The notes beneath the pieces were generated by a model, which made no database searches, was not told where the DNA came from, and saw only the letters and a program-made list of their open reading frames with translations. Below, piece by piece: positions 36,398 to 40,059 of a DNA stretch of 60,701 bases (position 1 is its first letter; every line of letters starts with the position of its first letter). The DNA is from Candidatus Zixiibacteriota bacterium (GTDB lineage: Bacteria; Zixibacteria; MSB-5A5; JAABVY01; JAHJOQ01). Location of the stretch: the NCBI GenBank assembly GCA_018820315.1, contig JAHJOQ010000105.1, forward strand, positions 1 to 60,701, in the 5' to 3' direction. The position numbers were made by a program, and so were the translations under genes.

Positions 36398-37756
36398 TCA
36401 CATCACGATCGCTTTCATCAGCATGTCATGAACGCCACCAATCGTCACATCTCGTTTATGATGTTGCATGAGTTGCAGCAATTGCCGTTTGCAGTTAGAG
36501 CAGGGTGCGGCGCAGAATTTCGCACCGGTGTCATCTATCTGCTTGAGTTTCATCTTTCCGGAAACATTCATGCGAAACTCATAGATCGAATCCATGGCTG
36601 ACAGTCCGCCTCCACCACCGCAGCACCAATTGAGATGTCGATTGGGCGTCATCTCCCTGAAATCCGCGCAGCAGGCCGTCATTATTGTTCTCGGCTCTTC
36701 AACGATGCCGCAGCTTCTGCCGAAGTTGCACGGATCGTGATACGTGACCGGGTCTGGATTCGCGCTTTTGTCGAGCTTGATAGCCCCGTCTTCAATCTTA
36801 CCGGCAGTATACTGCAGGATATTACCGATTTCGAATGGAAGTTGTCCCCACCATCCCGCTTTCTCCATGATGAACTTCATGATTCGATGAGCATGACCGC
36901 ATTCGCCCATCATGAGAGTCTTGCACTTCAGGCGCTTAGCTTCGTCGACATAGAGTTTGTTGTCCTCTTTCATAGATTTATCGTCACCGGTGAATAGGCC
37001 GTAGTTGGCACCATCAAATGCCTTTGAACTCAGCGTCCATGATACTCCGAGTTTGTGAAACATCTTGGCCATACCCATAGTAGCTTCCGGGTTCACCAAC
37101 AGATCGCCTGAAGGAGGCACAAGAAATATCTCGGCGCCTGCTTTGTCGAAAGGTATCCTCACATCTATGCCACAGTCATCCTTGATCTCTTCTTCAAGAA
37201 AGGCGACCACATCTTTGAAAGCTGTTTCGCTGGCACCATCCGTATTACCTGTTTCGAGTGAAATCGCGACCACCTTCTGCAGTTGCTCCGGCGTGTAGCC
37301 GAGAGTGTCCGCGATTGCCCGACCCTTTCTGGTAACAACTGAATTATCAATGCTCATCGGGCAGAACGTTGCACATCTCCGACACCCGGTACATTCGTAG
37401 AATGCATTGACGAATGTCTCCATATCGCCGTCAAAGTCGCTGGCTCCTACGATAGGTCCGGCTAGCTTGCCCAATAGCGTTTTGTGTTTCTTGAAAACAG
37501 AGCGAATGAGATCGGTCCGTACGGCAGGATTACGCAATTCGGTTGGATCTCCTTTATATACAGGACACTGCTCCGCGCAAGTGCCGCATCTTACACACAT
37601 CTCCATGTAGAGCTTCAACACCCGTGGTCCGTTGTCTATTCCACTGATGGAGTTTACAACAGCTTCCCGCAGCGCTCCTCCGGTTACTTTATTCGATTTG
37701 ACTTCGGCTGCGTGACCGGTAGCCGTTCCACTATTTACTGCATCACTTTGAGACAC
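36398..37756 (-). CDS. DsrK/HdrD-like Fe-S oxidoreductase (CCG-domain protein)
   Basis: The protein has 452 residues and no signal peptide. Two 4Fe-4S motifs, C-V-R-C-G-T-C-A-E-Q-C-P and C-T-G-C-R-R-C-A-T-F-C-P, lie in residues about 54-145. The C-terminal part has the CCG site: D-P-C-N-F-G-R-S-C-G, then W-C-C-G-G-G-G-G and C-A-A-P-C-S-N-C. In DsrK, TmcB and HdrD this site binds the special 4Fe-4S cluster that reduces disulfides such as DsrC or CoM-S-S-CoB. It follows the DsrM-like gene by 15 nt and should dock on it at the inner membrane, facing the cytoplasm. The start is GTG 37756 with AAAGGAG 8 nt upstream. Confidence 0.88.
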   Translation of the reverse strand: MSQSDAVNSGTATGHAAEVKSNKVTGGALREAVVNSISGIDNGPRVLKLYMEMCVRCGTCAEQCPVYKGDPTELRNPAVRTDLIRSVFKKHKTLLGKLAGPIVGASDFDGDMETFVNAFYECTGCRRCATFCPMSIDNSVVTRKGRAIADTLGYTPEQLQKVVAISLETGNTDGASETAFKDVVAFLEEEIKDDCGIDVRIPFDKAGAEIFLVPPSGDLLVNPEATMGMAKMFHKLGVSWTLSSKAFDGANYGLFTGDDKSMKEDNKLYVDEAKRLKCKTLMMGECGHAHRIMKFIMEKAGWWGQLPFEIGNILQYTAGKIEDGAIKLDKSANPDPVTYHDPCNFGRSCGIVEEPRTIMTACCADFREMTPNRHLNWCCGGGGGLSAMDSIYEFRMNVSGKMKLKQIDDTGAKFCAAPCSNCKRQLLQLMQHHKRDVTIGGVHDMLMKAIVM

Positions 37757-37771
37757 AACAGAGTCTCCTTT

Positions 37772-38470
37772 CTAAGATTTCTGAATGATGGCTTTGGTGA
37801 AGAAGATTCCTCCGAAGTGCATGACTTTGCTGAACGGAATGACCATTATGAGAATCTGTGCGAGCAGGAAGTGAACCATGAGCATGCTGGCCTGCGGCAC
37901 CGCAGAGGCCGTCAGAGAGAATGTGAGCAACTGTGAGAAGTATGCCCGTGTAATCTCGAGATTGAAGTGTTCACCAAACCTCATCAGATTGCCGGTCGAT
38001 AGAATGGCGACTATAAGAAGCAGAGCAAGGAAATCGGAGAGATTAGAGACTTCCCGAACACGAAGCACCGTCATTCGACGAAAAATCAGAAGCAGAGCGA
38101 AAATCGTAATGATCACGCCCGCCGTGCCACCAGAGATAGCGCTCATCTGATCCGCGTTGATACCAAGCGCGTTCCACAGCGCAGGGAAATCCGTAAACAC
38201 GCGAACGTGGCCGATCACGATCAGTGCGAGAGTGGCGTGAAATATCCAGGCAAATACCCAGAGAAGCTTGTCTCCCCTGAAAAGGCCGGGGAACAGAAAT
38301 GCTTCCTTGATTACATTGAAGAATGAGGATACTCCACCGCTTGGGGCGGGGAACAATGTAAGCGCTCCCGGTTGAGGGGTCTTGGTCCAGACATAGAGCC
38401 TGCTGATCATGCCTCCCGCAAACAGGACTATTGTTATGTATGGCAAAATGCCAAAAACGAAGTAATTCAA
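37772..38470 (-). CDS. DsrM/NarI-like membrane cytochrome b subunit
   Basis: The protein has about 232 residues and five or six TM helices. His residues suited to heme b lie in F-A-W-I-F-H-A-T-L-A-L-I-V-I-G-H and M-V-H-F-L-L-A-Q-I-L. This is the NarI/DsrM/TmcC type of quinol-oxidising subunit. The start is not certain: no ATG exists in frame near the beginning. I choose TTG 38470 because AAAGGAAG lies 7 nt upstream and the conserved helix begins there; the open frame further upstream only shadows the DsrC-like gene. Together with the DsrK-like protein it would move electrons from menaquinol to a cytoplasmic thiol carrier. Confidence 0.8.
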   Translation of the reverse strand: MNYFVFGILPYITIVLFAGGMISRLYVWTKTPQPGALTLFPAPSGGVSSFFNVIKEAFLFPGLFRGDKLLWVFAWIFHATLALIVIGHVRVFTDFPALWNALGINADQMSAISGGTAGVIITIFALLLIFRRMTVLRVREVSNLSDFLALLLIVAILSTGNLMRFGEHFNLEITRAYFSQLLTFSLTASAVPQASMLMVHFLLAQILIMVIPFSKVMHFGGIFFTKAIIQKS

Positions 38471-38553: not shown

Positions 38554-38871
38554 TTACAGGCAGCCATATGGTCTTGGAAGACCGGCGAGGCGATAGGCGC
38601 CTTTTGCGACTCCGCACGGGAACAAATCGCAAATGTGCTTGGAGCTGAACCCAGTGCACTTACCAATCTTCACGATTGGCGGGCCTTCACCCGTTTTGAG
38701 ATAGTAGTTCTTCACGAACTCAATAATCTTCCAGTGATCATCAGTCAATGGCCCAAGATTGTTCTTGCGGGCAAGTTCCTCCGCAACATCTCGAGACCAG
38801 GACGACATTTCCCTCAGAAAGCCATCCTCATTTTCCAGCTGCTCTGAACTTGTAGAGGCGTCGCTTATCAT
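38554..38871 (-). CDS. DsrC/TusE-family sulfur-carrier protein
   Basis: The protein has 105 residues. L-T-D-D-H-W-K-I-I-E-F-V-K-N-Y-Y near residue 42 and the C-terminal arm A-K-G-A-Y-R-L-A-G-L-P-R-P-Y-G-C-L identify the family. The penultimate Cys104 (CysA) is kept. The second conserved Cys of true DsrC (CysB, 11 residues before) is Tyr93 here, as in TusE-type members, but extra Cys lie at 72, 81 and 86 (F-P-C-G). It is the first gene of a DsrC-M-K-like operon, so its role is probably a redox or sulfur shuttle and not tRNA thiolation; no tusBCD or dsrAB is in the window. ATG 38871 has GGAGG 4 nt upstream. Confidence 0.88.
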   Translation of the reverse strand: MISDASTSSEQLENEDGFLREMSSWSRDVAEELARKNNLGPLTDDHWKIIEFVKNYYLKTGEGPPIVKIGKCTGFSSKHICDLFPCGVAKGAYRLAGLPRPYGCL

Positions 38872-38990
38872 GAGTCCTCCCATGTGTTGATACTGCGATT
38901 CGATAATTCCAAACTCTGTCGGAAATGATCAGCCTGCTACCTGTCGACAGCGCTAGGAAATCGGGGAGGAACGCAGAATGCTCAATCTTA

Positions 38991-39018
38991 TTGACTAATT
39001 CGCATTCGGATGTATACT
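38991..39018 (+). promoter_or_regulatory. Strong sigma-70-type promoter, opposite to the dsrC-like operon
   Basis: TTGACT (38991-38996), 16 nt, TATACT (39013-39018). It faces away from the DsrC-like gene and toward the 3' end of the regulator gene on the other strand. The predicted start near 39025 falls at the foot of a structured segment. Confidence 0.6.
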
Positions 39019-39022
39019 TAGG

Positions 39023-39120
39023 GCGAAGCGGGTGACTTCCGGAACATCCCGGAATGCCATTCCCGCATCGCTGGGCTTGACGGGCTGGACTTGGTCGTTC
39101 GCGCCCGTCGAGCCGGCCTA
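39023..39120 (+). ncRNA. Candidate structured small RNA between the regulator and the DsrC-like gene
   Basis: Two long stems follow the 38991 promoter. The first pairs GCGA-A-GCGGG (39023-39032) with CCCGC-A-TCGC (39062-39071), with TTCCGG/CCGGAA (39037-39054) inside it, which competes with GGAAT/ATTCC (39051-39063). The second pairs GGCTTGACGGGC (39074-39085) with GCCCGTCGAGCC (39103-39114), 12 bp with one G-U. A TATTTCC follows. On the minus strand the same sequence would be in the leader of the dsrC-like operon if it is read through from the regulator gene. No known RNA family is recognised. Confidence 0.45.
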
Positions 39121-39220
39121 TTTCCTCTCCCGAGAATTCGTAGAACTGCTCTGGCTTCTACCTCCTTCCCGAAGAATCATTCCATTCGCATCACCAGTCT
39201 ATTCTCTCTCGATTCGATAG

Positions 39221-39976
39221 TCAGGACGCGCCATTGGCGATGAGCTTCGATAACATTGCCATCGAGAACGGCCGTTCCATGAACGCAAATACAACCTTGT
39301 CACATTTCTTTGGAAGTTCGCCACGGTTTCCCGCAAGGATCACTCTCACGAAAGGTATTCGGGGATCCTCACTAAGCAAGCTAGCAAACTGCTTGCTTCT
39401 CTGGACGCCCATCGAGCAATCGATCACAACATAATCAGGCCGGAATCCCTCCACCACCATCGAGCACCGATATTCACAGTCCGTCACTTGAAGACCAAAA
39501 TCTGCTTCCTTGGCTTCCTTTTCAAGTGCTGCCTTGAGTCGATTCCTATCGGTGACAACGAGCACATTTGGGCGATGCCCATGCACCGTTCGGTAATAGT
39601 CGCAGTCCTGACACGTACCATGGCAGAAGAGTCGCGCATGGCCGATCTCTGCAGGTAGATCGCTCATTTCATAGCAGCGAAGCGTTTTTGATTTATAAAC
39701 GACGCAATTCAGACAATCCTCTGGAATCTCACCGGTTTTCGAATTAAACTCCCAACAGTATTGAAACTTGGCACTGCGGTCGTCCCGATCCTGATTCTTG
39801 TCGCTTCGGAGGAACTCCAACAGAGCATCATGTGGAATCCTATGATGTCCACCCGGAGTCCGGACAGCCTGAATCTTGCCAGATCGTATCCACTTGAGGA
39901 CAGTATCGGGCGTGACTGAACATATTCCTGCTGCCTGTCCCGTTGTCAGATAGTTGTTTGCAGGAAAATCTCGCAT
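39221..39976 (-). CDS. One-component regulator: excisionase-type HTH, Cys cluster, receiver-like domain
   Basis: The protein has 251 residues. Residues 8-58 are a MerR/excisionase-type HTH (Y-L-T-T-G-Q-A-A-G-I-C-S-V-T-P-D-T-V-L-K-W and G-G-H-H-R-I-P). A Cys-rich middle has C74, C88, C91, C101, C118, C122 and C125, able to bind metal or an Fe-S cluster. Residues about 137-250 look like a receiver fold (N-V-L-V-V-T-D-R-N-R, Y-V-V-I-D-C-S-M-G), with the acidic pocket incomplete, so probably not phosphorylated. It lies upstream of, and in line with, the DsrC-M-K-like operon and is its likely regulator. ATG 39976 has GAGGG 6 nt upstream. Confidence 0.8.
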   Translation of the reverse strand: MRDFPANNYLTTGQAAGICSVTPDTVLKWIRSGKIQAVRTPGGHHRIPHDALLEFLRSDKNQDRDDRSAKFQYCWEFNSKTGEIPEDCLNCVVYKSKTLRCYEMSDLPAEIGHARLFCHGTCQDCDYYRTVHGHRPNVLVVTDRNRLKAALEKEAKEADFGLQVTDCEYRCSMVVEGFRPDYVVIDCSMGVQRSKQFASLLSEDPRIPFVRVILAGNRGELPKKCDKVVFAFMERPFSMAMLSKLIANGAS

Positions 39977-40030: not shown

Positions 40031-40059
40031 ATGATAATGGATAGCTACACCCATGTCAA
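40031..40059 (-). promoter_or_regulatory. Sigma-70-type promoter for the Cys-cluster regulator
   Basis: On the minus strand TTGACA (40054-40059 complement), 17 nt, TATCAT (40031-40036 complement), 55 nt before the regulator start codon. The rest of 39977-40278 shows no gene. Confidence 0.7.

Follow-up and report, generated by a model that had tools for sequence, protein, structure and literature searches.

In dissimilatory sulfur metabolism, DsrC with its two cysteines is regarded as the defining thiol/disulfide currency, with CysB as its diagnostic residue. In the cycle established by PMC3397948 and by the D. vulgaris DsrAB-DsrC structure that it cites, sulfur is loaded on CysA, the arm swings in, CysB acts as the resolving cysteine, and DsrMK regenerates the thiols. 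The window, as we call the whole stretch of 60,701 nucleotides analysed here, from a Candidatus Zixiibacteriota genome, encodes a DsrC-family protein with tyrosine at the CysB place, followed by DsrM-like and DsrK-like genes. Two questions arise: which residue might work against CysA in this protein, named DsrC-Y here, and whether the locus stands outside sulfite reduction, as the first-pass annotation proposed.

DsrC-Y and its signature residues

The dsrC-Y open reading frame occupies 38554-38883 on the minus strand; we prefer the ATG at 38871, which gives 105 aa, to the alternative in-frame ATG at 38883, which gives 109 aa (Table 1). Residues are numbered as in D. vulgaris DsrC, which has the same length by alignment, and the C-terminus reads ...HICDLFPCGVAKGAYRLAGLPRPYGCL. 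The protein is a member of the DsrC/TusE/DsvC superfamily by its scores against PF04358 (93.1 bits, cut-off 24.9) and TIGR03342 (82.1 bits, cut-off 53.5). Its AF2 model, with a mean pLDDT of 76.5 and values below 50 for the final three residues, has the DsrC fold, the top PDB match in Foldseek being 2v4j_C (E 1.7e-7). DSSP analysis of the model puts Cys86 in the loop ahead of the helix bearing position 93, and Cys81 in the helix before that.

Table 1. Features of the dsrC-Y region, numbered by position in the window.
Feature	Position	Strand	Evidence
dsrC-Y, DsrC-family, 105 aa	38554..38871	(-)	ORF, Pfam/NCBIfam profiles, alignment, fold match
Cys104 (CysA) codon	38560..38562	(-)	sequence
Tyr93 codon, CysB place	38593..38595	(-)	sequence, alignment
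Cys86 codon (Ser in canonical DsrC)	38614..38616	(-)	sequence, alignment
Cys81 codon (Tyr in canonical DsrC)	38629..38631	(-)	sequence, alignment
DsrK-like: two 4Fe-4S motifs and CCG domains, full Cys set (HDPC, CCGGGGG, CSNC)	36398..37756	(-)	profiles, alignment
DsrM-like cytochrome b subunit, NarI family, ~232 aa	37772..38470	(-)	profiles, relatives' alignment
Regulator: excisionase/MerR-type HTH, seven conserved Cys, REC-like domain	39221..39976	(-)	profiles, relatives
Sigma-70-like promoter TTGACA-17-TATCAT, upstream of regulator	40031..40059	(-)	promoter pattern
Predicted small RNA: 5' hairpin, conserved 3' hairpin GGCUUGACGGG...CCCGUCGAGCC, pyrimidine-rich tail	39018..39127	(+)	fold, covariation, promoter
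Sigma-70-like promoter TTGACT-16-TATACT of predicted small RNA	38991..39018	(+)	promoter pattern

At the four diagnostic positions DsrC-Y has Cys81, Cys86, Tyr93 and Cys104, where canonical DsrC has Tyr81, Ser86, Cys93 and Cys104. It is thus not a two-Cys DsrC (Cys93 and Cys104), for it keeps Cys104 but has tyrosine at position 93 and therefore no cysteine there for the canonical Cys93-Cys104 disulfide or trisulfide. The first-pass annotation had read Cys104, Tyr93 and Cys86 correctly from the sequence; its cysteine inventory stands for Cys86 and Cys104 but overlooked Cys81, likewise without exception in the clade.

When 133 genomes of the phylum were searched at the protein level, free of motif bias, nine close members came up, the window's own among them, at about 60-70% identity, and all nine carry Cys81, Cys86, Cys104 and Tyr93. 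A scan of species genomes extended the clade to MAGs labelled Zixiibacteriota, Latescibacterota, Calditrichota, Acidobacteriota, Myxococcota/Deltaproteobacteria, Fibrobacterota, Elusimicrobiota, Planctomycetota, LCP-89 and Gemmatimonadota, that is, to at least ten phyla. Cys81 and Cys104 are invariant in 28/28 sequences, and position 93 is Tyr in 26 and Phe in 2; the cross-phylum scan, and the clade label too, used an FPCG pattern, so that Cys86 is conserved there partly by construction, a bias that does not touch Cys81, Tyr/Phe93 and Cys104. Cys81 is absent from all 66 other single-domain DsrC/TusE sequences, and the clade forms one side of a 100/100 branch in the tree. Because two sequences have Phe at position 93, this pattern argues against a catalytic tyrosine hydroxyl. 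No description of a CysB-less DsrC variant was found in the open-access literature, and we conclude that DsrC-Y is a real and conserved variant of DsrC, undescribed in the searchable literature. One member, in genome G129 (L021/L050, 8632-8910(-)), contains an in-frame TAG, which may mark a pseudogene, an assembly error or a case of recoding.

The cassette and the Dsr system of its hosts

On the minus strand of the window the regulator is followed by dsrC-Y, the DsrM-like gene and the DsrK-like gene, with gaps of about 83 nt between dsrC-Y and the DsrM-like gene and about 15 nt between the last two; the start of the DsrM-like gene is a proposed TTG at 38470, set by alignment with relatives. 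The four-gene order recurs in eight or nine of the nine genomes of the phylum and in most loci of other phyla, where DsrM-like and DsrK-like genes accompany DsrC-Y nearly everywhere, and because of this recurrence the arrangement is not due to chance. The earlier proposals of a DsrC variant heading a DsrM-like/DsrK-like pair, and of a Cys-cluster regulator upstream on the same strand, are thereby borne out.

The DsrM-like protein matches PF02665 with 70 bits and lies under the NCBIfam DsrM equivalog cut-off (90 vs 300 bits), as does the DsrK-like protein under that of NF045796 (352 vs 400 bits, the canonical DsrK of the same genome scoring 727). The cysteines expected of a CCG domain with a non-cubane 4Fe-4S cluster, namely HDPC, CCGGGGG and the final Cys pair, are present in 16/16 aligned cassette DsrK sequences. 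Cassette DsrK also retains both 4Fe-4S motifs, and its complete CCG set includes CSNC at the place of CAID in the canonical DsrK of this genome. The tree puts cassette DsrK on a branch by itself (99/97) and separates it both from canonical DsrK (100/100) and from the DsrK2-type, which these genomes have as a third paralog; the row L188 labelled 'other' falls within the cassette branch and is a second cassette-type copy. The cassette DsrK of G115, a genome of the window's phylum, clusters with Myxococcota and Planctomycetota rows, and this placement points to movement of the cassette by horizontal transfer. A third DsrM/DsrK-like pair of the window's genome (L187, 6083-9158, contig C82) is preceded by an Rrf2-like gene and has no adjoining DsrC.

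In two Planctomycetota cassettes, L068 (6001-11669) and L189, DsrJ-, DsrO- and DsrP-type genes, of which the window's cassette has none, lie between the M and K genes. The cassette run of G145 is spread over two contigs, L189 and L188, and this genome has two cassettes. These JOP genes are the strongest sign that the cassette may build a DsrMK(JOP)-like complex.

The cassette shares with the canonical DsrC and DsrMKJOP of D. vulgaris, A. vinosum and contig C65 of the window's genome the DsrC fold, the flexible arm with its penultimate Cys104, and the pairing of a cytochrome b with a CCG iron-sulfur protein, with JOP too in the Planctomycetota version. It differs in that DsrC-Y has no CysB (Tyr/Phe93), has gained Cys81 and Cys86 and is encoded outside the dsrAB operon, and in that its DsrM-like subunit is shorter and its DsrK-like subunit has an intact CCG Cys set. 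A CCG iron-sulfur subunit with a NarI-like anchor is also found in Tmc and Hmc (TmcB/TmcC, HmcF/HmcE), but their profiles score 233 and 208 bits on the DsrK-like protein against 352 for DsrK, and to our knowledge no DsrC gene belongs to either complex. An extra MK pair beside an existing DsrMKJOP is furthermore reminiscent of DsrMK paralogs without JOP, namely the second DsrMK of Archaeoglobus (PMC3949148), dsrM2/dsrK2 (PMC6018796) and a DsrMK-only clade (PMC10504309); unlike the cassette, these are presented in the excerpts of the three papers with no mention of a dedicated CysB-less DsrC. The DsrK2-type branch, although present in the same genomes, is separate from cassette DsrK.

Contig C65 of the same genome carries dsrA, dsrB, a CobB-type gene (dsrN-like), a dsrL-like NAD(P)-binding protein, dsrM, dsrK, dsrO and dsrP, and, in the dsrAB cluster, a canonical two-Cys DsrC (KGACKVAGLAKPTGCV). 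Because of this canonical DsrC and Dsr cluster, we read the window gene as an additional DsrC copy whose host has the full Dsr system, and not as a lone DsrC outside it. The earlier statement that dsrAB is missing is correct for the window, but dsrAB lies elsewhere in the genome, and the proposed route outside sulfite reduction is not supported. The same annotation had held that a two-Cys DsrC next to dsrAB, serving the complex, would speak against its reading; a two-Cys DsrC does lie in the dsrAB operon, yet it comes with a canonical DsrMK of its own and is no obvious partner of the cassette complex, so that this objection holds only by half. Since the canonical DsrC with its own MK coexists with DsrC-Y, the latter would be a dedicated paralog.

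A dsrA match above cut-off was found in 47/133 genomes of the phylum and in 9/9 of its cassette genomes (naive hypergeometric P ~5e-5, phylogeny being ignored), and in 23/28 cassette genomes examined across phyla. Among the five others, canonical DsrC persists in G142, G145 and G140, accompanied in the first two by canonical DsrK; G143 has a two-Cys DsrC only, without dsrA and canonical DsrK, and G148 has the cassette and a tandem DsrC (see below) without dsrA, canonical DsrC or canonical DsrK, although both are MAGs, in which absence is not proof. Cassette hosts thus almost always already own an ordinary sulfite-reduction system. The DsrD profile (PF08679) gave no match anywhere, not even in the controls, so that this negative carries no weight.

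A predicted small RNA beside the regulator

The stretch that separates the regulator from dsrC-Y contains, on the strand opposite to the cassette, a predicted small RNA that stops short of the 3' end of the regulator gene. Its two hairpins and pyrimidine-rich tail recur in 17 cassettes from several phyla (the window, L043, L044, L045, L047, L048, L052, L055, L058, L059, L063, L064, L066, L067, L068, L070 and L132), with a TTGAC-type promoter ahead of nearly all; within the phylum it is predicted at 6/9 cassettes. Fold z-scores range from -3.1 to -6.9 (11 folded), and in the 3' hairpin four base pairs are altered on both sides, with G-U pairs compatible with the plus strand only. The model of this RNA matched a held-out locus, L132, at E 4e-11, and a strict promoter pattern was present at 14/19 sites against 0.12 expected. 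We considered that the hairpin might serve the cassette strand, as its leader or operator, and rejected this, as the G-U pairs, the promoter and the tail indicate transcription of the opposite strand.

Two more good matches lie beside regulator paralogs without an adjoining dsrC-Y cassette (L204, 5000-5108(-), in G080; L205, 4568-4675(+), in G067, contig 47). Because it is found at such paralogs, the small RNA appears to belong with the regulator rather than with DsrC-Y. A further match in G091 (L206) is a terminator without a regulator and was taken as chance. Rfam has no family for this RNA: the window region gave only isrB at chance level (E 0.25, below gathering), six related loci gave no relevant match, and no description was found in the open-access literature. 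The regulator and the predicted RNA linked with it provide an entry point to the control of the DsrC-Y branch in uncultured lineages.

Possible replacements for CysB

Clade membership, the three invariant cysteines, the conservation of the cassette and its co-occurrence with dsrAB are established from sequence. On this basis we favour, with modest confidence, a reading in which DsrC-Y is a DsrC paralog dedicated to a second, separate quinol:thiol oxidoreductase of the DsrMK type, the two forming an add-on to the Dsr sulfur pathway. At the end of the flexible arm, Cys104 would bind or carry sulfur, or accept electrons. The arm would then swing back to the protein body, where conservation suggests that Cys104 may bond Cys86 or Cys81 as a disulfide or trisulfide in place of the missing Cys93. 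The CCG non-cubane cluster of the DsrK-like subunit would reduce this bond, or in reverse oxidise the thiols, with electrons from the DsrM-like subunit and the quinol pool, and the Cys-cluster regulator, probably together with the adjoining small RNA, would turn the cassette on. That Cys104 probably works against Cys86 or Cys81 is the simplest inference because the resolving Cys93 is gone and two new cysteines are fixed; Cys81, conserved equally with Cys86, is a candidate resolving cysteine in its own right. Against the favoured reading count the sub-cut-off equivalog scores of the DsrM-like and DsrK-like proteins, the neglect of phylogeny in the co-occurrence P, and the two MAGs, G143 and G148, that have the cassette without dsrA or canonical DsrK.

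It is also conceivable, though we regard it as unlikely, that Cys104 alone bears a persulfide, as in TusE, and exchanges sulfur with DsrAB or some other acceptor, with MK as persulfide reductase or oxidase and Cys81 and Cys86 as structural residues. In A. vinosum DsrC, the penultimate cysteine alone binds sulfur (PMC3397948), and DsrC-Y resembles TusE, of the TusBCDE relay, in having CysA alone in its arm. TusE-type proteins have indeed lost CysB, but they have Ala, Ser or Thr in its place (PMC3397948) where the DsrC-Y clade has Tyr or Phe; nor does TusE have an MK partner or the extra cysteines, two of which are new and invariant here. Furthermore, the TusD/DsrE profile (TIGR03012) had no match in the window's genome, while the E. 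coli control was matched; a TusE role with TusBCD is consequently unlikely. Scoring 'CysA only' proteins as TusE would misfile proteins such as DsrC-Y. A sensory role, in which DsrC-Y would read the thiol/quinol state through MK and signal to the regulator to control dsr genes, seems highly improbable to us. The linked HTH/7-Cys/REC regulator and small RNA, and weak fold matches of the DsrC-Y model to helix-turn-helix regulators (E 0.24 and above), are in its favour, but the full MKJOP set in Planctomycetota looks energetic, not sensory.

A partner in trans is suggested by a tandem DsrC of about 220 aa, whose two domains each have CysB and which has no CysA arm, making it the exact complement of DsrC-Y. 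CysA would then come from DsrC-Y and CysB from the tandem protein, and MK would act on the inter-protein redox bond of a heterodimer. The tandem gene, of which we found no description in the open-access literature, is encoded in 22/29 cassette genomes, in most loci right after dsrK-like or nearby, and its clade is well supported in the tree, as is that of DsrC-Y. It is missing, however, from the window's genome and from six other cassette genomes, some of them incomplete, and tandem proteins exist without DsrC-Y, near hydrogenase or cysteine-desulfurase-like genes. With 7/29 cassette genomes lacking it, we rejected the tandem DsrC as an essential partner, and since it is missing from the window's genome, it is there an optional partner at most. 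This pairing is decidedly doubtful, and we give no more credence to its wider form: a split, re-wired 'bacterial heterodisulfide' module in which a second DsrMK(JOP) would have CysA-bearing DsrC-Y and CysB-only tandem DsrC as its redox couple, under the control of the Cys-cluster regulator and the conserved small RNA. Such a module would have passed as a whole from phylum to phylum, upgrading the Dsr pathway.

A widespread CysB-less paralog with two other cysteines and its own MK is an experiment of nature: it can help to tell which cysteine is required by the arm, and whether what MK complexes recognise is a disulfide, a trisulfide or a persulfide. Tandem DsrC genes away from DsrC-Y occur singly or in rows (L121-L127, L052, L065 and others), with up to three in a row at L124; their neighbours, named from sequence reading, are hydrogenase-like at L124 and L126 and cysteine-desulfurase-like at L122 and L125.
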